Below, piece by piece: positions 6,801 to 58,638 of a DNA stretch of 64,000 nucleotides. The stretch comes from Gemmatimonadota bacterium (GTDB lineage Bacteria; Gemmatimonadota; Gemmatimonadetes; Longimicrobiales; Gaopeijiaceae). Location of the stretch: positions 1 through 64,000 of the forward strand of contig JBBEBG010000016.1 of NCBI GenBank assembly GCA_040882465.1, given 5' to 3'. How positions within the stretch are numbered: position 1 is the stretch's first letter; each line of letters opens with the position of its first letter. The notes under the pieces are model-generated. The model saw nothing but the letters and a program-made list of their open reading frames with translations, searched no databases and had not been told where the DNA came from. The translations under genes were made by a program, and so were the position numbers.

Positions 6801-8394
6801 CCCGCTGGAGCCCCGCCGCCATACCCTCCATGGAAAGCGGGGCCAGGATCACATCCAGGCCAACTTCGATCTCGCCGTTCGTGCGAGCCACGGTGCCTGC
6901 GAGCGAAACTTGGGACCGCGTCGCCCCGGAGACCGAGTGCTCGAGCTCCGCCTCGATCGCGATCCCTTCGTCCAGGCGGCCGGTGGCGACCAGTTGGAGA
7001 GTCCCGTCTCCCGTGAAGTCGAGTTCGGGTGCGAAGGCGGAAAGCGACTCGTAGCGGAAGGTGTCCGAGACCACCGAAAACCCTGTGACGCCAAGGCGAT
7101 CGCCTGCGTGAAGCGTGCCTGTGAAGGTCGCCGAGAGGGGCGGGACGTCGAGAGCTGGGTCCACGTATTCGACACGTCCGTTCAGGACGAGGGCGCCGAA
7201 GGGGCCCCGCACCGACACGTTGCCGGTCGCGAGCCCGGTGATCGCGAGAGGCTCTTCGAGCCAAACATCCACCGCGGCGAGCTCGAAAGGATCGAACTCG
7301 AGTTGGGTGTCCGCCACGCGAATCGGGTCCCCGAGGTCGAGGCCGAAGGCGCCTTCTATCCGGCTCCGTCCGGAGCGGATCACAGCGTCCGTGACGCGAA
7401 GCGAGCCACTGCCGAAGGTGCCGGTGAAGGTGAGGTCCCCGCTCCCTTCCCCGTCGGGAAGTCGAGGCTCGAGCCAATGGAAGTCCGAAAGGGTCAGCTC
7501 AGTCGCCCCGAGCTCGGCATCGAAGGAGACACCGCCGTCGGCGGAGGACCCCGACCAGTCCACGGCGACGGTGCCCTGGACCGCCGATCCGGGGAATCGG
7601 AGGACCGCCACGTCGAGCGAAAGTCCGTCGCCTGCCCGCGCGACGGTCCCCTCGAACTCCTCGATTCGAATCGGATTCTGGAAGACGTAACCCGTGAACG
7701 AGAGCTCTTCGATCTCGAACACCTCTCCACTCCGATCCGGATCGAGGATGTTTCCCTCGACGAGGCGGGCGAAGATGTCGTCGAACCGGATCACCTGAAG
7801 AGGGCCGCCCCCTTGCGGGGAGGCCTCGACGATCCCGTCGGGGATCCCTTCGCCATCCTGAATGGGGCGGCGCAAGACGAAGCCCGCGTCGTGGATCTCC
7901 ACGTCGCGGAGCGCGATCGAGAAGCCCCGGAGGCCGCCGTCCTCGGAAGGCTCCGAGAGCGCCTCGTCCCCGACAGTGGCGGAGTCGGAACGCAAGAAGA
8001 TCCTTTCGACATTCGAGCGCGCCCCGTGAGAAAGCGTCTCGATCGTGATGTCGGCACCCCAGAGCCCAACCGGAACGAGGACGATGCGGCGGGCGAGGAG
8101 TTCCCGGTACGAATACCGCACCCGGACCGAGTCGGCCTCCAAGAAGGGGCGGCCCTCAGCGTCGCGAATGGCCAGGCCTCGCAGGGTGAACCCCTGGAGA
8201 AGCCCGCTGGAATGGATTCCGGCGACGGCGACCTGGCCATTGACCAGGCCGGAGAGTTGGCGCAATCCCAGTCGAAGGGCGAAGTCGTGCCCCGGCTGGC
8301 TTCGGATCAGGAGATAAGCGAGCGCGAGGACGACGACGGTCAGGAGGACGAGCCCCACGCCGATCCATCTCGCCACGCGGACGGCCATGGCCAT
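3877..8394 (-). CDS. tamB: TamB-like (DUF490) envelope protein
   Basis: A large AsmA/TamB-type protein of 1505 residues, thought in the family to form a hydrophobic groove across the periplasm for lipid transport, or to work with TamA in outer-membrane assembly. One N-terminal membrane segment (roughly residues 8-30, rich in V and L) is followed by more than a thousand residues of repeated beta-strand sequence. The C-terminus is the conserved TamB/DUF490 part, with short motifs such as SYLLFGRPS and GLDYVNV. The chosen ATG at 8394 lies two bases after the stop of the barrel gene; a second ATG at 8388 is possible. Reading further upstream would overlap the barrel gene and adds no membrane-protein features. 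The adjacent barrel gene makes a TamA/TamB-type pair the natural reading. Paralogous YhdP-like proteins are a weaker alternative. Confidence 0.88.
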   Translation of the reverse strand: MAMAVRVARWIGVGLVLLTVVVLALAYLLIRSQPGHDFALRLGLRQLSGLVNGQVAVAGIHSSGLLQGFTLRGLAIRDAEGRPFLEADSVRVRYSYRELLARRIVLVPVGLWGADITIETLSHGARSNVERIFLRSDSATVGDEALSEPSEDGGLRGFSIALRDVEIHDAGFVLRRPIQDGEGIPDGIVEASPQGGGPLQVIRFDDIFARLVEGNILDPDRSGEVFEIEELSFTGYVFQNPIRIEEFEGTVARAGDGLSLDVAVLRFPGSAVQGTVAVDWSGSSADGGVSFDAELGATELTLSDFHWLEPRLPDGEGSGDLTFTGTFGSGSLRVTDAVIRSGRSRIEGAFGLDLGDPIRVADTQLEFDPFELAAVDVWLEEPLAITGLATGNVSVRGPFGALVLNGRVEYVDPALDVPPLSATFTGTLHAGDRLGVTGFSVVSDTFRYESLSAFAPELDFTGDGTLQLVATGRLDEGIAIEAELEHSVSGATRSQVSLAGTVARTNGEIEVGLDVILAPLSMEGMAAGLQRDLPVSGDVRGELRADGPLGDLSLGGRLTTVAGAISGTARFDARDPLLRYSAEGSVSGFRVPVLVSGVPDRTEVTGSFSIEGSGGTLETVSGQAEVMLEESRVAGVALDWLDARLRAEGGRLHVDSLHLSSPILVLSGTGDFPLREDEPEGEIVMTFEVESLEALHPLIFGEDPIAVDTLTALERQVLLIEGVDLDTLGVSGENVLNGRMSGEGRARGRLGDVTAEASLHIEEAAYGVSTIARAEATLTGHWMGEEGIEFEASAGFDSLAVGSFAFQTGLAEVQYGQGEGSYILEVEGVSGEQYESAGTFATDSLGFEVVADRLVLEIEDLSWTLAHPAMVRVEGLAFQIDSFQIGRPAEGTGEPVTIAVDGLLDLEGVSDLRARFEGVELARVGTIAQMETFPSGLTGMEILIVGPASSPTIQGDFQIRDFSLNGTTLTLVEGTLHYEDRGLRAEVVGELDGRELLTANGTFPVDLAFQELETRIPDEEIDATLTLTDFPAATALAFLSVLEEVQGTIEGQIELGGTTRDFSPSGEIRLRGGSVFLAELGIRPSEIDADFHLREDGSVGIEATVRSDGIATISGGLSLSDLTDPGFDAISVRASGFQAANRRDLAARVGADLLLTGSYRGARVDGILAIEEGEISLEEFARSAQVIDLSDPNFFDVVDTTMIAVRPTEEGGQNAFLQNLRVEVDVDLERDFWLRSQEINVEIAGDLSAVFDRRTRELLLVGTLEPVRGTYDAYGRQFQVQGGSIGFVGTPGINPTLSINAVARLRREGGEPLNVLAQVRGTLVDPRVSLSSDSQPPIAESDLISYLLFGRPSYALSTGESLNLRAAVASQASQIFASSIASGIGSLVGRGFGLDYVNVTQADDPVGIGSAAGLTGTFAHTQIELGQYLGPNLFLAVLLRPLGGLQAGSQAQIPGARMEWKFTDTWSMEGFVEDRFAREGSSGFGELGLRLSKVLGLSIFREWGY

Positions 8395-8396
8395 GC

Positions 8397-10712
8397 TCAG
8401 AACGCCTGGCCGATGGAGATGTGAATCTGGAACCGATCGAGATCCCAGAAGCTGTCGCTTACGTCCCTCAACGTCACTTGAGGTCCCAGGAGGGCCAGGT
8501 CTTCGAGCCGAACCCACTCGAGAGTGTGGTCTCCGGAACGGAGGCGGTCCGCTGGTGCGTCCGTTTCCGTGTCGAAGGGGCGGATCTGGGAGGTCACGAC
8601 CTGCAGCGCCGCGGACTCAGGCTTGTGGTATGCGATGTCCACGCGGATCGGGCCGATGGGGGTCGCGTAGCGGAGTCCAACGCCGGGCGTGAACTCCATG
8701 TCCGAGAAGCTGAAATTCGCCGTCCCATCGTGGACCCGCCCGAAATCTACGAAGGCCGCTCCTCCCAAGGTGGCGCCGAGGATCGGGAACCGAAGCTCGA
8801 CGCTCCCTTCGACGAGCCGGCTCCCCCCCGTTGGACGCGCGAAAAATCGGCCTGTAGGGAGGTTCGACGCGTCGCAGGTGAGGGCGACGATCTCCGCGGG
8901 CGCACATACCGGCTCCGCGTCGTCCGCGACCGGGAAAACGAGGTTCTCGACCTGTGTCGAGATGACCTCGGGCCCGAGCCGGTTTTCCGAGAATCCGCGC
9001 ACCGAAGTCGAACCGCCCGCGTAGAACCGCTTCTGCGGATGCGCGACTCGACGCTCCGACCCCGGAGAGTCGCCTTCGAGCCCCCGGAACGCATCTGCCC
9101 CGAGCCAACCGCCCCGCAAACGGCCGGCGAGGACGAGAGTCTCTCCGAGGCCAATCCTTTCCCCCAACTCGAAGAAGACGGTGGCTTCCGCGAGAACGCG
9201 GTCGTACCGAAAGTCCGAGCCCGTCAAATCGGAGGCGTGTTCGAAATCCGCAAGGAGTGTATAGCCGCCGGTCGGAGAAACAACCCGGTTTGTCCGGTCT
9301 CGCGTGAGCGAGAGGCCTACGGGTGAGAGGAGGTTCGCCGACTGAAGGAGGTCTATGTCGCCCGGGTTGCAGATCAGGAAGGAAGTGCAGAAGAAGATTT
9401 CCGCCGCATCGAGGCGCGCCAGCTGCGGACGATACGAGAGAGTCAGGAAGGAGGCACGGCCGATGCTCCGGGCGATGCTCAGGTTGAGCCCGACGGCGCG
9501 GCGCACGAAGACGTTCTGAAGGCTCTGGCGCTCCGCGTAGAGGGAGGCCGCGAAGGAGTTTCTCGGCGAAAAGATGAAAGGCTGAGTGAAGTCCGCCGAA
9601 ACCACCCAGTTGAGCTCGCCGAAGACCCCGGTGCCCGCTCCCGAACAAATCGAACTGTCCAGACCCCGGGTGAAGAGGTTCGAGGCACGCCCCCGAACGA
9701 CGAGGCGCCGCAGCCCCCCGAAGAAGTTGAGACTCGACCAGCGCGACTCCGCGTGGAAACACTCGGCCGTGTCCCATCCCCCGCCGGCGCGCACCCGGTG
9801 CCCGTCGCCCTCGTTCACCGTGACGCGGACGGGGACGACGGCTTCCGAAGGAGACTCGGCGACCTCGTCGATCGCCGCGTGGGTGAAGATTTCTTGGCTG
9901 TAGAGATTCCGCTGGGCCTCGAAGCGCAACGACTCGCTGTAGACGGTTCCTTCCTGGAAGGGGAGTGTTCGCCGGATAACGGCGTCCGCGACATCGGCAT
10001 TCCCCTCGATGGAGATTTCTCCGAAACGCGCGAGGGGGCCCGCGTAGATGTCGAACTCCACCTCCGCTTCCCGGGTCCCCGCCGGAATGAAGAGGTTCCG
10101 GAAGACCTCCACTCGGGCATAGCCGGTGTTCTTGAGGCGGTTGAGGAGAGTATCGCGGGTCGCCTCGAGGAGCTCGAAGTCGAATCGGTCTCCGACCGAG
10201 ATGGGAAGGTTCGCGGTCACCGAGCTGCTCGGAACCTCCTCGAGCCCGAGAAGGGTGAGCGAGACGATGTGGTGGGGCTCTCCCTCCACGATCCGGAAAA
10301 CGATCTCCGCCTTGTTGTCCGGATGGCGCGTGACCGTCGTGTCCACCTGGACCTCGCGGAACCCCGCCCCCCAATAGAGGCGATAGACACGGACGAAGTC
10401 GTCGGCGAAGGTCCCCGGGCTCAGGTAGGAGCGATCGAGCGCGAAGTTCAGGCCCATCCAACAGAGGGGGAGAATCGCGTTGCTGCGGCAGGCCGTTTCC
10501 CTGGTGACGATTCGGCTCGCGATCTGGCGGTCCCCGAAGGCCTCGTTCCCTTCGAACGCGAGGGAGACGACTTCGGGGCGCAAGGGAGTCTGGGCGGAAA
10601 GCGACCCGGAAGACGCCGCGGTTGCCACGGAAGTCGCCGGGGCGATCAGAAGGGCGAAAAGCGCGGCCCCTACACCAGGCCACCCGAACCGCCGCGCTGA
10701 AGGCACCCTCAT
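8397..10712 (-). CDS. TamA/BamA-family outer-membrane barrel with POTRA domains
   Basis: An Omp85-superfamily outer-membrane protein of 771 residues. A signal peptide covers about residues 1-41 (ends near SLSAQ). POTRA-like repeats follow (VVSLAFEGNEAF, then segments such as IVSLTLLG and FGEISIEGN, to about residue 300). The rest is a 16-strand-type barrel with the usual alternating aromatic pattern, and the protein ends in phenylalanine, as barrel proteins recognised by the Bam machine do. Its stop is two bases from the start of the TamB-like gene, and its ATG overlaps the stop of the metallophosphoesterase by ATGA. Family knowledge supports a TamA-like partner of the downstream TamB. It could also be a second BamA homologue; the present sequence alone does not separate the two. 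Confidence 0.87.
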   Translation of the reverse strand: MRVPSARRFGWPGVGAALFALLIAPATSVATAASSGSLSAQTPLRPEVVSLAFEGNEAFGDRQIASRIVTRETACRSNAILPLCWMGLNFALDRSYLSPGTFADDFVRVYRLYWGAGFREVQVDTTVTRHPDNKAEIVFRIVEGEPHHIVSLTLLGLEEVPSSSVTANLPISVGDRFDFELLEATRDTLLNRLKNTGYARVEVFRNLFIPAGTREAEVEFDIYAGPLARFGEISIEGNADVADAVIRRTLPFQEGTVYSESLRFEAQRNLYSQEIFTHAAIDEVAESPSEAVVPVRVTVNEGDGHRVRAGGGWDTAECFHAESRWSSLNFFGGLRRLVVRGRASNLFTRGLDSSICSGAGTGVFGELNWVVSADFTQPFIFSPRNSFAASLYAERQSLQNVFVRRAVGLNLSIARSIGRASFLTLSYRPQLARLDAAEIFFCTSFLICNPGDIDLLQSANLLSPVGLSLTRDRTNRVVSPTGGYTLLADFEHASDLTGSDFRYDRVLAEATVFFELGERIGLGETLVLAGRLRGGWLGADAFRGLEGDSPGSERRVAHPQKRFYAGGSTSVRGFSENRLGPEVISTQVENLVFPVADDAEPVCAPAEIVALTCDASNLPTGRFFARPTGGSRLVEGSVELRFPILGATLGGAAFVDFGRVHDGTANFSFSDMEFTPGVGLRYATPIGPIRVDIAYHKPESAALQVVTSQIRPFDTETDAPADRLRSGDHTLEWVRLEDLALLGPQVTLRDVSDSFWDLDRFQIHISIGQAF

Positions 10713-41192: not shown

Positions 41193-42281
41193 TCACGCCC
41201 CCGCATCGGTTGAGAAGGTCGCCCTGAGCTTCTCGTCCAGCCCCGTCACCTCGTCCCTGTTCACGAGCTCGATGAAGGCGTCCACGATCAAGGGATCGAA
41301 GTGATTCCCCTTCCCTTCGAGGATGAGAGAGACGGCGTCGGAGAACGAGAGGGCTCCCTTGTAGGGCCGAGAGTGGGTGAGCGAATCGAAGACGTCCGCG
41401 ACCGCGACGACTCGTCCGACGAGCGGAATCTCGTCCCGCGAGCACCCCAACGAATACCCGGACCCGTCCCACTTTTCGTGGTGGGAGAGCGCGACCTCAC
41501 GTGCCATCCGGAGGAGGGGATAACGGCTCCCGGAGAGAATCCGGGAACCGATCTCCGTGTGACCCTTCATGAGCTCGAACTCCTCGCGGGAGAGCTTGGC
41601 CGGCTTCATCAAGATCGAGTCGGGAACCCCGATTTTTCCGACGTCGTGGAGGGTGGCCGCTCTGCGGAGGAGCTGCACCTCCTCCGGAGGAAGTCCCAAC
41701 TCGTGCGCGAGGAGCGCTGAGAGAAGCCCTACCCGCTCCGCGTGGCGCCCCGTGATGTCGTCCCGGTACTCGGCCGCGAGCGCCAGCCGGTGCAGGATCT
41801 CGACCTGCGCGTCGGCGAGCTCGCGCGTCCTTTCGCGCACCCGGTCTTCGAGCGTTTCGTTGTGCTCCTTCAGGGCGAGGTGAAGGGCCCGCGTCTCGAG
41901 GAGGTTTCGAATCCGGAGAAGGACCTCGGTCAGGTCGAAGGGCTTTGTGAGAAAGTCGCGCGCCCCCGTGAGAAGGGCTCGCTCACGCACGTCGGTGGCG
42001 AGGTCCCCCGTGAGGACGAGCACCGGGAAGTATTCACCCGCCGGGATTTCATTGGTCAGGAGCTCCAGGATCTGGAAGCCGTCGAGGTACGGCATTCGGA
42101 GGTCGAGGAGGAGGAGGTCCGGATCGAAGCTACGGAAAAGCGTCAATACCTCTCGGGGATCCGAGGTCGTGGCGACTTCCGTGTACCCCGCGCTCGCGAG
42201 CATCCGAGTGAGCACGCGGACGTTCATCGGCTCGTCGTCTACGATGAGGATCCGGTGCCTATTCAGGTCCGGTCCGGTCAT
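41193..42281 (-). CDS. Response regulator with HD-GYP domain
   Basis: A 362-residue two-component response regulator. The receiver domain (about 1-125) has the acidic pair in LIVDDEP, the phospho-acceptor Asp in LLLDLRMP and the Lys in LTKPFD. A coiled-coil linker (about 130-165) leads to an HD-GYP domain with H in GRHAERVG, HDVGKIGVPD, KGHTEIG, HHEKWDGSGY and DVFDSLTHSRPYK. The proline of GYP is replaced by serine (GYS), but the metal-binding histidines and HHE are intact, so c-di-GMP phosphodiesterase activity remains plausible. The ATG at 42281 is chosen because the receiver fold starts there. It is 16 bases after the exported hypothetical gene. Confidence 0.9.
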   Translation of the reverse strand: MTGPDLNRHRILIVDDEPMNVRVLTRMLASAGYTEVATTSDPREVLTLFRSFDPDLLLLDLRMPYLDGFQILELLTNEIPAGEYFPVLVLTGDLATDVRERALLTGARDFLTKPFDLTEVLLRIRNLLETRALHLALKEHNETLEDRVRERTRELADAQVEILHRLALAAEYRDDITGRHAERVGLLSALLAHELGLPPEEVQLLRRAATLHDVGKIGVPDSILMKPAKLSREEFELMKGHTEIGSRILSGSRYPLLRMAREVALSHHEKWDGSGYSLGCSRDEIPLVGRVVAVADVFDSLTHSRPYKGALSFSDAVSLILEGKGNHFDPLIVDAFIELVNRDEVTGLDEKLRATFSTDAGA

Positions 42282-42297
42282 CACATCCCTCCGCGCT

Positions 42298-42852
42298 TCA
42301 GCGCGGGACCGACACCCTGGAGAGCGCGCCGACGAAGGAGCCGGCGGCCGCCCGCGCCTCCAAGATCTGTCCGTGCGATACACCGGTCTCGGAGCTCAGG
42401 ACGAGGAGATTGGCCAACGCGATGAACTCGGCGTCGGTCAGGTTGATCGCGTCCCACTGGGAAGGGGGCGAGTCGCGGAAAAGGCCATGCACCCTTGCCA
42501 CCGAGGGGTCCACCTGCCCGTCCGGGATCGCCACGTGGAAGGAAGCCGCTCCCAGGTTGTAGCGGCGCGCGATCACGAGCCAGCTGTCGCCCGATCGTCG
42601 CTGGGCGAGGAGAGAAACCGGAGGGATCCCCGAAAACCGGGCCAGACGGAGCGCCACGGGCAGTTCGTCCGCTGGGACCCGTCCCTCGGTCAGGATCCGC
42701 ACTTCCGTCTGGGGAAGGCGAAAGTGCGTAGAAAGGACACGGATGTATGTGTCCAGAGAGGCTTGCCGGTCCGCCGGCATCTCTTGCGCCACGACCGGGA
42801 TGCCCGGGCCCGTGAGGGCCGATACCGCCAACACCATCAGAAGGCTTCGCAT
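42298..42852 (-). CDS. Exported protein of unknown function
   Basis: A 184-residue protein with a clean signal peptide (about 1-22, MRSLLMVLAVSALTG...VVAQE). I do not recognise the mature part. It is mixed helix and strand and contains RYNLGAASFHVAIPDG, a pattern a little like LysM-flanking segments, and ends in a helical NLLVLSSETGVSHGQILEARAA stretch. The gene sits directly before the HD-GYP response regulator, so it may sense something in the periplasm for that regulator's kinase, or simply be co-transcribed. The upstream reading to 42954 is rejected because the signal peptide begins at 42852. Confidence 0.72.
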   Translation of the reverse strand: MRSLLMVLAVSALTGPGIPVVAQEMPADRQASLDTYIRVLSTHFRLPQTEVRILTEGRVPADELPVALRLARFSGIPPVSLLAQRRSGDSWLVIARRYNLGAASFHVAIPDGQVDPSVARVHGLFRDSPPSQWDAINLTDAEFIALANLLVLSSETGVSHGQILEARAAAGSFVGALSRVSVPR

Positions 42853-51764: not shown

Positions 51765-52247
51765 GTGAGGGACGCCCTATTCCCCTTTTTCCAGTGGTCT
51801 GAAGCGACGGGCGCGGCCGGCTTTCTTCGGACGTCCGTCTGGGCCTTTCCTTTCGTGCAGGCGGTCCATCTTCTGAGCCTCTGCGTCCTGGCCGGGGCGA
51901 TCCTGATCGTGGATCTCCGCCTCCTCGGAGCCGGAATCAAACACCAACCGATTCCGAATGTGATCCGGCATGCGCGCCCATGGCTGGTGACCGGACTCCT
52001 TCTCATGATCATCACGGGCTATCTGATGTTTTCCGCGAACGCGGCCGCCCGTTACTTCATCAACGACTCCTTCTGGGTGAAGATGACGACGCTTCCCTTG
52101 GCGATCGTCTTCACCTTCGGGACACGGGAGACGCTCGTCCGAAGGGACCGGATCGAGACCTCCCTTCGGACCCGCCTCGCGGGAGCCGTGTCCATCGTGC
52201 TCTGGTTCACCGTGGCCGCCGCGGGACGCTGGATCGGATTTTCCTAG
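51765..52247 (+). CDS. Second DUF6644-like membrane protein
   Basis: A 160-residue four-span membrane protein, paralogous to its neighbour: FFQW at the start, the histidine in AVHLLSL, LIVDLRLLG, RPWLVTGLLLMIITG, FWVKM, and VSIVLWFTVAAAGRW. It starts with GTG at 51765, three bases after the upstream stop. Its TAG stop shares the four-base palindrome CTAG with the TAG stop of the convergent HD gene, so there is no intergenic space for a terminator. Confidence 0.84.
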   Translation: MRDALFPFFQWSEATGAAGFLRTSVWAFPFVQAVHLLSLCVLAGAILIVDLRLLGAGIKHQPIPNVIRHARPWLVTGLLLMIITGYLMFSANAAARYFINDSFWVKMTTLPLAIVFTFGTRETLVRRDRIETSLRTRLAGAVSIVLWFTVAAAGRWIGFS

Positions 52248-53623
52248 AGGTAGTCGAAGGGGTCGATCCCGACCGACTCCCCGTCCACCACCTCCTGCGC
52301 GTCGCCGAATATTTCCCGGCTCCCATTTTGGCGCGAAAGGTCCAACTCGTCCGGCTCAGACAGGCTCGCCCCATCGGGGCCTAGAACCACGAGGATGCGC
52401 GGACGGCGAGGATCGTGCGGATTCGAACGACGAACCACGCCCACCGCCCCGCTTGTGAGGCGGATACAGGTCCCCGGGGGGTAAAAGCCGACGAGTCGGG
52501 CGAAGCCCTCGAAGAGATCGGCGTCGAACTTCGCCGCCACTTCGTCGTGCATGATCTGCATGGCGACGTCCGGAGGAAGCTCCCCGCGGTACGGCCGCAC
52601 CGATCGAAGGGCGTCGTAGACATCGGCGATGCAGATCATCTGCGATGCTACATGGAGTGGCCACTTCCCCGAGTCGGGATGGTCCGCTTCGTAGGCGAGC
52701 TGGTGCTCGTATGCAACGATCGGCGCGAGGTCGCCGACACCCGCCGCGCTCGCCAGCATCTTCGTGCCGTCGGGCCCATGGCGTTCCATGACCTCCCGCT
52801 CCTCGGCGGTCAGCTTTCCGGGCTTGTTCAGAATTTCCAGCGGCACCCGCTCCTTTCCGATGTCATGCAGGAGGGCCGCGAGCGTGATCTCGTGGAGAGC
52901 GCGCGCGTCGAACTCGAGAGCCTTGGCCAACACAAGGGTCAGGAGTGCCACGTTCACGGAGTGCGTGAAGGAATAGGCATCATGCACCTTGAGCGCGTGG
53001 AGGGTGAGGAGAGGATGCGCCTCCTCCGCCGCCACGCCCACCAGCCGGTGCGCGAGGTCCTTCGCCTCATCGAGGTGCTCGAGCCTCCCGCGCGCGCGCG
53101 CCGCGTGCCGAATTTTCTTGACCGTCTTGATCCCCGAGCTGTAGATCTCCCACGCGCGGACGAGACTGTCCCCCTCGGCCTCGCTCGTTTCCTGAACGGA
53201 AAGCGGTCCCGCCTTCAGGTGTTGCACCCCTTCGCGATCGAGAATCGCCTGGACCCCGCCTTCCTCCTCGAGCGCGGCGCTCTCGGTGGCGAGGATGCGG
53301 AGGAATTGCTCGAGTTCCCACTGGAGGAGCCCCTCGTGGAACGCCACCCGACCGATTCCGGCTCGGCGAAGGCTCTCCGCGAAGCCCTGGAGGGCGGGGC
53401 TCCGGACGGGGACTTGTACGCTTCCCACGATGAACTCTTCATCCACCAGGGCGATGCGGAAACGCCGTTGGTCCTGGAGGAGAGTGCGCAGCCGAACGTA
53501 GCAGTCGCGGATCGCCTCCTGCGCCCGATGGTGGCCCGGCGGATAGAGGGCCTGGGTTCGGGCCGCGGAAAGGAGAAGCGCGGACACCTCAGCGAACTCC
53601 TCGCGGAGGCTCTTCGCGCTCAA
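52244..53623 (-). CDS. Divergent HD-GYP-type phosphohydrolase with N-terminal domain shared with the HEAT protein
   Basis: A 459-residue protein. The N-terminal region (about 1-175) contains ALYPPGHHRAQEAI and is homologous to the N-terminus of the next gene's product. The HD domain has HSVNVALLT, LLHDIGKERVPLEIL, ERHGPDG and IADVYDALRSVRPYR. The HHE motif of classical HD-GYP is replaced by YEHQ and GYP by SGKWP, so activity on c-di-GMP is uncertain. A C-terminal part ends in a VVLGPDG stretch. The start is TTG at 53623, overlapping the HEAT gene stop (TTGA). It is the last gene of the four-gene operon. Confidence 0.85.
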   Translation of the reverse strand: MSAKSLREEFAEVSALLLSAARTQALYPPGHHRAQEAIRDCYVRLRTLLQDQRRFRIALVDEEFIVGSVQVPVRSPALQGFAESLRRAGIGRVAFHEGLLQWELEQFLRILATESAALEEEGGVQAILDREGVQHLKAGPLSVQETSEAEGDSLVRAWEIYSSGIKTVKKIRHAARARGRLEHLDEAKDLAHRLVGVAAEEAHPLLTLHALKVHDAYSFTHSVNVALLTLVLAKALEFDARALHEITLAALLHDIGKERVPLEILNKPGKLTAEEREVMERHGPDGTKMLASAAGVGDLAPIVAYEHQLAYEADHPDSGKWPLHVASQMICIADVYDALRSVRPYRGELPPDVAMQIMHDEVAAKFDADLFEGFARLVGFYPPGTCIRLTSGAVGVVRRSNPHDPRRPRILVVLGPDGASLSEPDELDLSRQNGSREIFGDAQEVVDGESVGIDPFDYL

Positions 53624-55968
53624 AGTCCTGCCCCCGCTTCGGTACCAGGCTCCGCTCTGCCCGACGAGTCCGGCGTGTCCCGCACTCCGGGGCGATCCTT
53701 TTCCTCCGATCTCGACCAGGGGAGCCACCGCGCGAGCGTTCTCGCCACTCCCCGCCGCGGCCGAACTCCGAGCGACTGGAGGGCCCACCGGGCCGCGAGC
53801 GCGACGGAGCGGCGCCGCTCAGCATAAAGCCAGGGAGTACGGGAAAGTTCCTGGAGCCTCCCAACCGACTCCGTGTCCCCAAGCCTTCCCAGCGCGACGG
53901 CGGCGGCCTCGATGAGGTCGCTGTTATTCCCCCGGCGGTTAGAAAGACGAAGGATCGGCCTGAGGCGAGGCACTCCCCGAATAAGCCCACTCTTTCCTAC
54001 CCCTTGGATCGAAGCCACCTGGGTCTCGCGATCCTCGTCGTCCACCGCGGCGATGAGAAGCTCACCGGCGGCCGCTCCTCCGATGTTCGCCAGTGCCTGC
54101 GCACTCTCTCGCCGCACCCGCGCGTCGGGGTGGCGGATCGTGATTCGAAGGTGCTCAACGAATTGGGGATCTCCGATCTCGCGCACGATCGAGACGAGAT
54201 TCCGGACCACGTACCATCGCTCGTCATACAGGTGTGCCTCGATCGCGGGACCCACTCCCGGGCCCATGCGGGAAAGGATCTGGAGCAGGAGGAGCCGCCC
54301 CGGCCTCGACTTCTCTTGCGAGAGCGCGGTGAAGAGCGGTGGAATCGCGAGTGACCCGAGGTGCGGAAAGATGCGAGCGCCGGCCTCTACCGTTCGCGCG
54401 GGTTTTCCGAGGAAGCTTCGCACCAGCTGGAGAAGGGTGTGGCGATTGCAGAAGCGGTCGAGCACCTGCTCGGCTACGTCGCGCTGCCGGACCGGCCTAC
54501 CATCCTCGACCTTCCGGTGCCGAGCGAACGTGGCGATCAGTCGCTCCACCAGGTCGTACTCCTGATGCACGACGAACTCCGGAAGCGCCTTCTCCAGCTC
54601 GTTGGCGAGGAGCAGGTATTCCTCGACTTCGGATTCCCGCTCGAGGAGAGAGAGGAAGATCTCGCTCTTCCGGCGCAGGAGGAAGGTGGGATCCATCTCC
54701 CTCATGCGCGGCCGAATCCGCTCCATCGGCCAAAACTCTTCGGACCCAGCGCCTTCCGTATCGAGCAGCTCGAGGGTGGCCTGGTACCGCCGGCTCACGA
54801 AGGGTCCGGGATCCTCCCCGAGCAGGACGTCCTGGAGGTCCGGCCAGTGTTGCAGGAGGCCGGCGGAGTCGTCGGGCCCGCCTTTTTTTCCGGCCAGGGC
54901 GGCCATGGCCGCCTCAGCGATCTCCTTGCGGTCCTCCCGCCCCTCCAGGATCCGCGAGAAGAGTTGCATGACTCGAGACGATGCGCGGCCCCGGTTCTCG
55001 ACGGAATAGACGATGAGCTCCTCCAACTGACTGCGCTCCAGGCCGCGTGCGATCGCCTTGGTGAGGTCCACCGGCCCCGCCCGCTCTTCCCGACCCTCCG
55101 TACCCGGTGAGGGCACCCGACTCCCCGCGTCGCCATCCCCTTCCGTGAAGCCCCCCATCCCCTCCTCGAGGGTCATCGGCTCCGCGAGAAGCTCCATCCA
55201 CACCTCAGGGTGGATGCCCGCGTACACGTCGCGGATCTCGCGGAGGATCAACTCCAATTGGGCAGCGCCCATCCCGATCGCCGCCTGGCCCGCGTTCTGG
55301 CACGCGAGCCGCAGGAGGTCCACCCGTGAGTGCGCCGACAGCTCCTCCGGCATGTCGGCTCCCTTGACCAGCCACTCGAGGAGCGCCCTGAATTTCTCGG
55401 GACTGGCCGCGAGAGTCTGCCAGCTGATGTCAGGTCGCTCCTGTGCCACCTGAAAGCCCAGAAGCAGGGTGTCCCACGCCTGATCCCCCTCGACGGCGCG
55501 CCCATCCTCCTGGAAGGCTTGTTCCAACTGCAGGAGGGTCGCGGAGAGCCCTGGGAGGTGGCGGGACTGGAGGTAGTGATCCAACCCTCCCCGCGCCTCC
55601 AACTCCGCGCGGTCCTGCCCGAGGGCCTCGGCGAGCCCCGAGAGGGTTTCGGGAACGAGGAGGGCATCCAGGTCGAGTCGGGCCACGCGCCGGTGATGGA
55701 GCTTCCCCGCGAGTCTCCCGACGACGGCGTTCCCCTCTCCAATCTCCCGGCCGTCCGCTCGAAAACTAGAAGGGAGGACGTCGAGTTGGACCGGTCCGTG
55801 CCGGAGGAGCGGAAAGAGGCCCGCGTGCGCGCGTTGGATCGCCTCCGTCACCACCGGGGATCCCGCCGGATACAGTTCCATCGCCTGCACGGCGAAACCG
55901 AGCTCCCGAATCGCACCGTCGAGGAGGGTCTGGCGGGTGCGGTCGGGTACCACCTCGGGGGACGCCAT
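53620..55968 (-). CDS. HEAT-repeat protein with the shared N-terminal domain
   Basis: A 782-residue protein without signal peptide. Residues about 1-170 match the N-terminal domain of the HD protein (ELYPAGSPVVTEAIQRAH, then DADALL/ETLSGLAEAL pattern). The centre is helical and acidic. The C-terminal third carries HEAT-type repeats (VRNLVSIVREIGDPQFVEH, RRESAQALANIGG, IEAAAVALGRLGD). HEAT solenoids bind proteins, and in bacteria they are also found next to signalling or chaperone modules. It starts 7 bases after the J-domain gene. Confidence 0.8.
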   Translation of the reverse strand: MASPEVVPDRTRQTLLDGAIRELGFAVQAMELYPAGSPVVTEAIQRAHAGLFPLLRHGPVQLDVLPSSFRADGREIGEGNAVVGRLAGKLHHRRVARLDLDALLVPETLSGLAEALGQDRAELEARGGLDHYLQSRHLPGLSATLLQLEQAFQEDGRAVEGDQAWDTLLLGFQVAQERPDISWQTLAASPEKFRALLEWLVKGADMPEELSAHSRVDLLRLACQNAGQAAIGMGAAQLELILREIRDVYAGIHPEVWMELLAEPMTLEEGMGGFTEGDGDAGSRVPSPGTEGREERAGPVDLTKAIARGLERSQLEELIVYSVENRGRASSRVMQLFSRILEGREDRKEIAEAAMAALAGKKGGPDDSAGLLQHWPDLQDVLLGEDPGPFVSRRYQATLELLDTEGAGSEEFWPMERIRPRMREMDPTFLLRRKSEIFLSLLERESEVEEYLLLANELEKALPEFVVHQEYDLVERLIATFARHRKVEDGRPVRQRDVAEQVLDRFCNRHTLLQLVRSFLGKPARTVEAGARIFPHLGSLAIPPLFTALSQEKSRPGRLLLLQILSRMGPGVGPAIEAHLYDERWYVVRNLVSIVREIGDPQFVEHLRITIRHPDARVRRESAQALANIGGAAAGELLIAAVDDEDRETQVASIQGVGKSGLIRGVPRLRPILRLSNRRGNNSDLIEAAAVALGRLGDTESVGRLQELSRTPWLYAERRRSVALAARWALQSLGVRPRRGVARTLARWLPWSRSEEKDRPGVRDTPDSSGRAEPGTEAGAGL

Positions 55969-55975
55969 TGCTCGC

Positions 55976-56746
55976 TTAGGGCCCCTCGAACCGCAGGTGA
56001 TCGTCCAACTCCGGGCTCCCTGGCGCCGTTCTCCAGCTCAGGAGGTCCACCATGACCGCGGAAAGGGGCCGTTTGGCGCTCGCCTGTTCGGCGTTGAAGG
56101 CCTCGACCGTGCGAAGGAGCTTTTCCGGGTCGGTGAAGCGGAGAGCACCTGCGATTCCCAGGACGCGGTCGTCGCGCCACCAGTTCGCTTCGAGGGTGCG
56201 GGCGAGGGTCTCGAACCGGGTCAGGATTCCGCGCAGAGCACCCTCGTCCAAACGGTCCGCCACAACGACGAGAAGCCGGCGGCGGCGGCGGCCCCGCGTG
56301 GCCTCCAGGGCGATCGAGGTCCCCGCGGCCTGGAACTCCGACCAGCGGTAGTCGGGTGCCGCGTTCCGAACACGCCCGCGGAGCTGCTCCACGGCCGCGC
56401 GTGTCACGAGCGCCGCATCCTCCATCCGTCCGCGAGGTGTCTTCGAGGTCCGGTCTCGGCCACTTCTCGGAGGCGCTCCGTTCTGGACGGACGGAGCGGA
56501 GCCGGCTAGAACACTCGTCCGTTCGGCATCGTATTTGGCCCGGAGCGCCGGCGCACGGAGGATCGCATAGGCCTGGTTCAACTCCACCATCTTGTTCTCG
56601 GCCAGATGCCTCAACTCCGCGTCCATTCCGGCGACCCGATCCGGGTGGCAGGCGCGGGCCCGCTGGCGATACGCTTCCCGAATCTGCTCGGCGTCGGCTC
56701 CGGGATCCACGCCGAGGACGGCGTACAGGTCCGATGGCGCGTTCAT
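55976..56746 (-). CDS. J-domain (DnaJ-like) protein
   Basis: A 256-residue protein beginning with a complete J domain (about 1-75): LYAVLGVDPGADAEQIREAYR, then the HPD tripeptide in ACHPDRVAG, then ELNQAYAILRAP. There is no Gly/Phe region or zinc finger, so it is a type III J-protein. The remaining about 180 residues are a domain I do not recognise, with RRRRRLLVVVADRLDEGALRG and AVMVDLLSWRT. It should stimulate an Hsp70 (DnaK) at a specific place, probably on its operon partners. The ATG overlaps the ATPase stop (ATGA). Confidence 0.87.
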   Translation of the reverse strand: MNAPSDLYAVLGVDPGADAEQIREAYRQRARACHPDRVAGMDAELRHLAENKMVELNQAYAILRAPALRAKYDAERTSVLAGSAPSVQNGAPPRSGRDRTSKTPRGRMEDAALVTRAAVEQLRGRVRNAAPDYRWSEFQAAGTSIALEATRGRRRRRLLVVVADRLDEGALRGILTRFETLARTLEANWWRDDRVLGIAGALRFTDPEKLLRTVEAFNAEQASAKRPLSAVMVDLLSWRTAPGSPELDDHLRFEGP

Positions 56747-58638
56747 CCGGTCTCGGCCACGCCGTTGGGGGGAACGATTCCGGGCGCTGGCCCGGCGCCG
56801 AGCGCCGGGGTAGCCGGCGATGCAATCCGGGAACTCTCCGCATCAGCGGACCTGGCGTCCCGGGACACCTCCGGCGCACCCGTCTCCCGGACCGCTCGCG
56901 CGATCTCGTCGAGGCTCGTGAGGCCTTGGCGAACCTTCGCCATCCCCGCTTCCCAGAGCGTCTGCATTCCCCCCTCTTCCGCGAGCCGCGTGAGCTCACC
57001 CTGGCTCGCTCCTCGCACGACCCCTTCGCGGAAACGATCCGTCACACTCAGGATCTCGAAGATCGGAACGCGCCCGTGGTATCCCCGCCCCTGGCACTCG
57101 GCACAACCACTCGGGGCCAGGTAACGCTGTCCATCCACGGGGAGATGGAGGGAACGAAGGACGGCCGGATCGGGACGGGCAAGCGCCGCGCAGTGATGGC
57201 AGAGCCGCCGAACCAGCCGCTGGGAGATGATCGCCAAGAGCGAGGAGCTCAACATGAACGGGGTCACGCCGAGATCGAGGAGCCGCACCACGGTGCTGAC
57301 CGCACTGTTCGTGTGGAGCGTCGAAAAAAGGAGGTGGCCCGTGACCGACGCGCGGGCTGCGATCTCCGCCGTCTCCTCGTCACGGATCTCCCCGACGAGG
57401 ATCACGTCCGGGTCCTGGCGGAGGACGGAACGGAGGACCTTAGCGAAGGTGAGCTCGATTTTGTCCCGGATGGGGACCTGCGTGATTCCCGGGAGCTGGT
57501 ATTCGATGGGGTCCTCGATTGTCACGACATTCAGGCTGTCGGTGTCGATCCGCTGGAGAAGTGAGTAGAGAGTCGTCGTCTTCCCCGAGCCGGTCGGACC
57601 GACGACCAAAATCATCCCCTGGGGATGCGTCAGGAGTCCCTTCACGAGCTCCAACTGACGAGGCTCGAGCGCCAACTCCTCGAGCTCCATCAGCTGCGTG
57701 TGCCTGTCGAGGATGCGAAGGACCATCTTTTCTCCCGCGAGCGTCGGGAGCGTCGAAACCCTCAAGTCGATCTCTCTCCCGTCCACGTTCACCCGGCATC
57801 GTCCGTCCTGGGGGAGACGGCGTTCGCTCACGTCCATTTCAGCCAGGACCTTGAACCGGGACACGAGCCCGGCGTGCATCCACTTGGGCATCACCTGGCT
57901 TTCGACCAAGCGCCCATCCACCCGGTTGCGAATCACGAGGTGGTCCGCCTGGGGCTCGATATGGATGTCGGAGGCACGCTCCCGCAGTGCTTCGTGGAGA
58001 ATCAGATTCTGGAGATGAACCGCGCTGGGGAGTCCTTCACCGGACTCGCCAGAGACGCCCGCAAGGAGCTCGGCCGGGAGGAGCGCCTCCTCATCCGGGG
58101 AGAGCACGAGGGCGCCCAGTTCACCCTTTTCCGCCATCGAATCCGCCGTCCGGGAGCGCCCAGGCGAAAGGAGCGTGGGCATTTCCCGTTCCGAGGGCAC
58201 TACAGCGGTCGAAGCGGACTCGTGGGAATGGTGGAAGCGAATAGCGGTGAAAAGATCGGCTCGGTCGGCGAGCACCGGGACGATCCGAGCGCCGGTGAGG
58301 GCCTGGAGTCGGCCCGTGGCCCCGAAGTCGAGGGGATCGTCCATCGCCACGGTGAGCTCCTCCCCCACTCGGGCGACGACGAGGGCCGGAATCCGCTCGG
58401 CGACTCGCTGGGGAAGAACACGGGCGACCTCGGGGTCCACCTGCAGAAGGGTGGTGAGATCGTAGACGAACTCAGGTTGGGTCTGGAGGGCGTCGAGGAT
58501 GTCCCGCTTCGAGACCAGGCCCATTCGGACCAACGTTTCACCCAGCCAGCACTTCTCGCTCTCCGACTTTGCTAGGACGGCGCGAAGCGCCTCTGAGTCC
58601 AGCTTGCCTTTCCGGACGAGAAGTTGGCCGAGCTTCAC
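56743..58638 (-). CDS. PilB/GspE-family secretion ATPase with MshEN-like N-terminus
   Basis: A 631-residue type II/IV secretion ATPase. Two MshEN-like units at the N-terminus (KLGQLLVRKGKLDSEALRAVL and WLGETLVRMGLVSKRDILDAL) follow the c-di-GMP-binding LGxxLxxxG pattern. The ATPase has Walker A GPTGSGKTT at about residue 350, the Asp box TIEDPIEYQLPG, Walker B VILVGEIRDEETA, the His box LFSTLHTN and the tetracysteine zinc site (CHHC...CAEC). It starts with GTG at 58638. A Pro/Ala-rich tail follows. It powers pilus extension or protein export in relatives, but no pilin, PilC or secretin gene lies in this window. Confidence 0.9.
   Translation of the reverse strand: MKLGQLLVRKGKLDSEALRAVLAKSESEKCWLGETLVRMGLVSKRDILDALQTQPEFVYDLTTLLQVDPEVARVLPQRVAERIPALVVARVGEELTVAMDDPLDFGATGRLQALTGARIVPVLADRADLFTAIRFHHSHESASTAVVPSEREMPTLLSPGRSRTADSMAEKGELGALVLSPDEEALLPAELLAGVSGESGEGLPSAVHLQNLILHEALRERASDIHIEPQADHLVIRNRVDGRLVESQVMPKWMHAGLVSRFKVLAEMDVSERRLPQDGRCRVNVDGREIDLRVSTLPTLAGEKMVLRILDRHTQLMELEELALEPRQLELVKGLLTHPQGMILVVGPTGSGKTTTLYSLLQRIDTDSLNVVTIEDPIEYQLPGITQVPIRDKIELTFAKVLRSVLRQDPDVILVGEIRDEETAEIAARASVTGHLLFSTLHTNSAVSTVVRLLDLGVTPFMLSSSLLAIISQRLVRRLCHHCAALARPDPAVLRSLHLPVDGQRYLAPSGCAECQGRGYHGRVPIFEILSVTDRFREGVVRGASQGELTRLAEEGGMQTLWEAGMAKVRQGLTSLDEIARAVRETGAPEVSRDARSADAESSRIASPATPALGAGPAPGIVPPNGVAETG

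Follow-up and report, generated by a model that had tools for sequence, protein, structure and literature searches.

A four-gene operon in Gemmatimonadota joins a PilB-like ATPase to a J protein, a HEAT-repeat protein and a divergent HD-GYP protein: a candidate regulated motor module

Why should a PilB/GspE-type assembly ATPase be encoded together with a J protein, a HEAT-repeat protein and a divergent HD-GYP protein? The question is raised by a 64,000-nucleotide stretch of a Gemmatimonadota bacterium (assembly GCA_040882465.1, contig JBBEBG010000016.1, positions 1 to 64,000; here, the window). An earlier note on this DNA had described four minus-strand genes joined by ATGA, a 7-base gap and TTGA, and both the coordinates and the junctions match the DNA, the J/HEAT junction reading TAA-GCGAGCA-ATG. 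The identities given to the genes are likewise borne out by Pfam (T2SSE plus MshEN for the ATPase, DnaJ, HEAT_2 and HD_5). In support of the TTG start assigned to the HD gene, its relative in a second genome, G418, starts at about the same place in the alignment, directly after the HEAT stop. The four genes are a real operon. We tentatively read them, at somewhat less than even confidence, as one regulated motor module, an auxiliary PilB-type motor with a dedicated J co-chaperone and with the HEAT and HD proteins as its regulators.

A search for this gene order across phyla had been set beforehand as a check capable of refuting the earlier proposal, and it found that the order is not unique. 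G418, an Acidobacteriota metagenome-assembled genome (MAG), carries all four genes on contig C457 in the same order and on the same strand (ATPase-J-HEAT-HD, with the HD gene reaching the contig end), and the window proteins are identical to their counterparts there at 57% for the ATPase, 39% for the J protein, 42% for the HEAT protein and 54% for the HD protein. This genome was reached with a profile of the J C-terminus run over 199 Acidobacteriota genomes, and was placed by a phylum search around a named Acidobacteria MAG. Since the same four-gene order stands in an Acidobacteriota genome, chance or artefactual open reading frames (ORFs) were rejected. Our surveys sampled a few hundred species per phylum, and found no further case of the order among 362 Acidobacteriota genomes and no other among the 200-300 sampled Gemmatimonadota. 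Searches with the J C-terminus in 121 genomes of the family and with the HEAT protein in 298 Gemmatimonadota genomes returned no orthologous operon, the J C-terminal profile matched the window genome only among 200 Gemmatimonadota genomes, none of 249 genomes gave the ATPase a full-length match of more than 44% identity, and a contig scan with the HEAT protein found nothing. In the genomes searched, the order is apparently unique within Gemmatimonadota.

The first half of the operon also occurs without the second, and the J gene is a conserved partner of the ATPase lineage found in the window and in Acidobacteriota. With the G418 ATPase as the query against the 362 Acidobacteriota genomes, all ten non-self matches at E < 1e-160 were followed directly by a J gene on the same strand (three of them had also come from the J search). 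The best-scoring relatives of the window ATPase in other phyla include five Acidobacteriota MAGs, picked by the ATPase alone, with a J gene directly after it, which brings the Acidobacteriota ATPase-J loci to 15. These five MAGs have further PilB-like and PilT-like ATPases besides this one, and four of the MAGs show a PilB-like match near a PilT-like one on a different contig, resembling a type IVa pilus locus. A divergent, degenerate GGDEF gene stands beside the ATPase-J pair, sometimes with one or two genes in between, in 14 of the 14 loci with sufficient contig (L126-L130, L213-L215, L236, L238-L242), and the Glu of GG(D/E)EF is always replaced in its product (HSEDS, YAEDT, LGGDS). Domains of the cyclic di-GMP (c-di-GMP) type recur beside the ATPase, with motif residues lost in both phyla. 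Two other candidate neighbors were set aside: the PilM identity of a gene upstream in Acidobacteriota, read from its N-terminus without profile support, and an HD protein near an Omnitrophota ATPase (L193), which is an ordinary HHE..DGSGYP protein with a different layout.

Judged by its sequence, the window ATPase is a PilB-like paralogue and not PilB itself. Its motor motifs are complete (Walker A GPTGSGKTT, Asp box, Glu/Walker B, His box and the tetracysteine C480/C483/C512/C515), and its scores fall below the NCBIfam equivalog cut-offs for PilB (519.3 bits versus 675.65) and GspE (504.9 versus 630.25). In the tree it occupies its own long branch, the exact placing of which is unsure, and it is without the Cys-rich zinc ribbons that end the ATPases of G418 and other Acidobacteriota. 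The MshEN domain, which the earlier note had expected to bind c-di-GMP through its LGxxLxxxG pattern, passes its profiles (Pfam, 46.8 bits with a cut-off of 23.1; NCBIfam motif, 42.3 bits with a cut-off of 38). Comparison with the MshEN motif reference (PMC5013675) over 14 motif positions found, in place of two intact RLGxx..G..LxxxLxxQ motifs, the changes R9K, Q32S, R38W and L54I, so that the motif-I Gln and the motif-II Arg are lost. The G418 domain keeps Q32, R38 and Q61 and has R9K, G18R and L54V, while the other Acidobacteriota proteins carry His at position 32 and, in most cases, Asn at 47. R9 and Q32 are involved in c-di-GMP binding in Vibrio cholerae MshE (PMC5013675); because both are changed here, binding by the window ATPase is doubtful.

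Other orphan PilB-like ATPases were seen in the phylum. A second one in the same genome (L042, G000:C8, at about 8060-9859; 599 amino acids) keeps Q32 and most of motif II in its MshEN domain. Other Gemmatimonadota encode such ATPases of 740-790 amino acids without PilC nearby (L109-L114, L117, L124), and a conserved gene of about 700 amino acids or more adjoins the ATPase gene in seven of these eight loci.

The window J protein has a DnaJ domain with the HPD motif (Pfam), followed by a C-terminal domain that seems to be common to the group. The C-termini from the window, G418 and G439 (a genome of the same class as G418) align with those of Acidobacteriota over 145 hhalign columns, with an E value of 5.8e-5 for this single comparison and a probability of 38%, and an Asp-x3-Trp is conserved near their end in the alignments. 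In an AlphaFold model with a predicted local distance difference test (pLDDT) of 68, the domain takes an alpha-beta3-alpha-beta-alpha-beta arrangement; Foldseek with the C-terminal half of this model gave a weak likeness to PD-(D/E)XK enzymes (FokI, EndoMS and Can2 at E values of 0.008-0.025). By eye, we found no conserved D...(D/E)xK triad in the alignments of the J C-terminus, and a binding role for the domain would be a simpler reading than a nuclease.

The second half of the operon exists by itself in Gemmatimonadota: phylum-wide, more than 30 loci have a HEAT gene directly followed by an HD-GYP gene (hits to both were the reason for picking many of the initial twenty; among those picked by the HD protein only, most still have the HEAT gene). 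One class of these pairs lies close downstream of groEL (L059, L064, L066, L068, L071, L076). Another, in which the gene identities were read from the sequences, lies between trpB and trpA and includes contig C18 of the window genome. At this last locus (L084, G000:C18, 4662-11618) and in more than 10 others from the phylum, the pair sits inside the tryptophan operon with lexA divergent upstream. The HEAT and HD proteins have a common N-terminal domain, absent from Pfam, in the window and in the groEL-linked class and, by eye, in the trp-linked class. The window and G418 operons join ATPase-J and HEAT-HD, which elsewhere are separate pairs.

The HD proteins of the window and G418 form their own clade (support 100/99), separate from every other HD protein in the tree. 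HD-GYP enzymes are recognized by eight metal ligands, or seven in the Y/F subgroup (PMC4159591). Two of the eight PmGH ligands are changed in the window protein, E185 to Tyr, as allowed in the Y/F subgroup, and H277 to Gln. The HHExxDGxGYP loop is also lost (EHQLAYEADHPDSG). Both histidines and GYP are intact in all 33 paired HD relatives, whereas the G418 protein has the histidines without GYP. The loss of GYP alone is not decisive, since GYP point mutants of PmGH stay active, but H277A essentially abolishes PmGH activity (PMC4159591), and because this ligand is lost the window protein is probably not a working c-di-GMP phosphodiesterase, contrary to the degrading role that the earlier note had drawn from HD-GYP domains. 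The HEAT and HD proteins are most likely best seen as regulators that are noncatalytic.

In the mechanism that we propose, the ATPase would be an auxiliary PilB-type hexameric extension motor for a type IV filament platform whose genes lie elsewhere; in the window genome this could be the type IV pilus (contig C9) or the type II secretion system (contig C38). The J protein would bring DnaK either to the motor itself or to some bound client, and so free, load or turn over the hexamer, with its C-terminal domain providing the specificity. The HEAT protein would pair with the catalytically decayed HD protein, with which it has an N-terminal domain in common, as a scaffold or sensor that decides when the motor runs; the HD protein would bind a ligand or partner instead of degrading c-di-GMP. 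The DnaK contact, the physical complexes, the target machine and any ligand are what we infer. Action of DnaK on the ATPase-J motor is suggested by the conserved partnership of the two genes and by a precedent in Nostoc: there DnaK1 acts together with DnaJ3, interacts with PilB and links the activity of pili to polysaccharide output (PMC9239167). Our analysis suggests, then, a previously undescribed motor under chaperone control.

Several observations weigh against this regulated motor module. All four genes occur together in two genomes only, so a single match between phyla is what ties HEAT-HD to ATPase-J. The fold of the J C-terminal domain is of low confidence, and the domain common to the HEAT and HD proteins was modelled at a pLDDT of 49, too poor for a structure search. 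In G439 the J gene stands alone beside lptB-rpoN, the genes that flank the G418 operon, and hence the J protein may have a role independent of the ATPase or be a remnant. This lone gene (L217, 9869-10735) encodes a close relative of the G418 J protein and lies between an lptC/A-like gene and lptB. Its position also makes contamination of the G418 contig less likely, arguing that this contig was binned correctly and that the operon is open to erosion.

The ATPase could instead drive a machine of its own, an undescribed type IV filament or secretion system with its platform, pilins and exit pore encoded elsewhere, an unlikely reading that nevertheless has several observations on its side. The ATPase has its long branch, the PilB proteins at pilB-pilT loci of the same genomes belong to a different lineage, a predicted ORF at L130 contains a prepilin-like stretch, and in six Acidobacteriota loci a large gene precedes ATPase-J, with a weak GspC/GspB-like C-terminus in those examined; the GspC-like call, however, is below the curated cut-offs. 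The window genome has PilB-PilT-PilC on C9 and a type II secretion-like locus on C38, each with its own ATPase, and PilC/GspF-type matches occur there only at these two loci and at a Tad-like one (C1), with no spare platform found. Because the genome offers the pilus, the type II-like system and only a Tad-like third platform, we put an auxiliary motor first and a separate machine second. It is improbable that the ATPase-J unit is no motor and reports motor state to other pathways, as in signalling or exopolysaccharide control. Cyanobacterial DnaK1/DnaJ3 (PMC9239167) and Myxococcus xanthus PilB, which has a signalling role (PMC5544727), would provide precedents, and the partner proteins are regulator-like and no platform gene is nearby, but the ATPase retains every catalytic motif of a working motor.

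A true c-di-GMP switch, with MshEN binding the nucleotide and the HD protein degrading it locally, is decidedly improbable. Both domains are present, G418 keeps Q32, R38 and Q61 of MshEN and the second His of the HD pair, and proteins of the c-di-GMP type adjoin the ATPase in both phyla. Against these stand R9K, Q32S, R38W and H277Q in the window and the loss of GYP in both genomes; H277 is needed for activity in PmGH (PMC4159591), and R9 and Q32 take part in binding in MshE (PMC5013675). The earlier proposal of a c-di-GMP-controlled motor is upheld in part: the PilB-type motor motifs and the c-di-GMP-type neighbors (HD-GYP-like here, GGDEF-like in Acidobacteriota) are there, while the key MshEN and HD residues are lost. 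Mere co-transcription without shared function would agree with the separation of the ATPase-J and HEAT-HD pairs in most genomes; that the four genes keep one order and strand in two phyla, at 39-57% identity, makes it very improbable.

Returning to the auxiliary motor, its closest known counterparts are the PilB/MshE extension ATPases, with which it has in common the MshEN plus T2SSE architecture and all catalytic motifs. It differs from them in its scores below the PilB and GspE cut-offs, its lack of platform neighbors, its co-encoded J protein and its degenerate c-di-GMP motif. Acinetobacter baylyi uses two extension ATPases, one of the TfpB type and PilB, on one pilus (reviewed in PMC11656802), and the window genome likewise has a second PilB-like ATPase alongside type IV pilus genes, but this reaches 421 bits where the TfpB cut-off is 850, and its neighbors differ. 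The Nostoc system similarly ties an Hsp70/J pair to PilB motors; it is experimental whereas ours is genomic, and the available part of PMC9239167 reports no HEAT or HD partner. The window HD protein shares the HD fold and most metal ligands with the phosphodiesterases PmGH and RpfG, and departs from them in two of the eight PmGH ligands, in the GYP loop and in an N-terminal domain absent from Pfam. A link between a PilB-like motor and a chaperone is of a kind already known; to our knowledge, the co-encoded J protein, the degenerate GGDEF or HD partners and the joining of the modules are new. Our literature search found no publication combining these elements, although such an absence is no proof of novelty.

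Around the operon lie genes for a histidine kinase, a receiver-flavoprotein, DUF6644 membrane proteins, DUF6152 and a MauG-type peroxidase. As the earlier note had said, there is no pilin, PilC or secretin, none being found among the scanned flanking genes, and a crude motif scan found no prepilin motif in the window. Elsewhere in the window, positions 41193-42383 encode a response-regulator HD-GYP protein with the loop HHEKWDGSGYS and an RpfG-like layout. Composition was uninformative as to foreign DNA (guanine-plus-cytosine content of 66.7% in the operon versus 67.2% in the window), and a defence system was discarded, the PADLOC matches being marginal and on generic ATPase and HEAT stretches.

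Table 1. Coordinates of the operon genes, domains and junctions in the window
Feature	Position	Strand	Evidence
PilB/GspE-type assembly ATPase, 631 aa, GTG start	56743..58638	-	T2SSE 1.7e-128, all motor motifs
MshEN domain of ATPase, degenerate c-di-GMP motif	58228..58635	-	Pfam MshEN 2.9e-12; NCBIfam c-di-GMP motif 42.3 bits
J-domain protein, 256 aa	55976..56746	-	DnaJ 5.4e-16, HPD at 34-36
J-protein C-terminal domain, weak PD-(D/E)XK-like fold	55991..56434	-	AlphaFold model, Foldseek, hhalign
HEAT-repeat protein, 782 aa, N-terminal domain common to HD protein	53620..55968	-	HEAT_2 1.2e-20
Divergent HD-GYP protein, 459 aa, TTG start	52244..53623	-	HD_5 3e-18
ATGA overlap, ATPase stop/J start	56743..56746	-	read from DNA
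TTGA overlap, HEAT stop/HD start	53620..53623	-	read from DNA

Taken more widely, the ATPase may represent an undescribed class of type IV filament motor with its own Hsp70 co-chaperone, governed by decayed c-di-GMP enzymes (GGDEF in Acidobacteriota, HD-GYP plus a HEAT scaffold in the four-gene version), a possibility that we regard as rather doubtful. A motor gene conserved with its own J gene in a phylum is a direct handle on the chaperone control of secretion ATPases, and its recurrent pairing with c-di-GMP-type proteins short of catalytic residues provides a testable case of enzymes reused as regulators.

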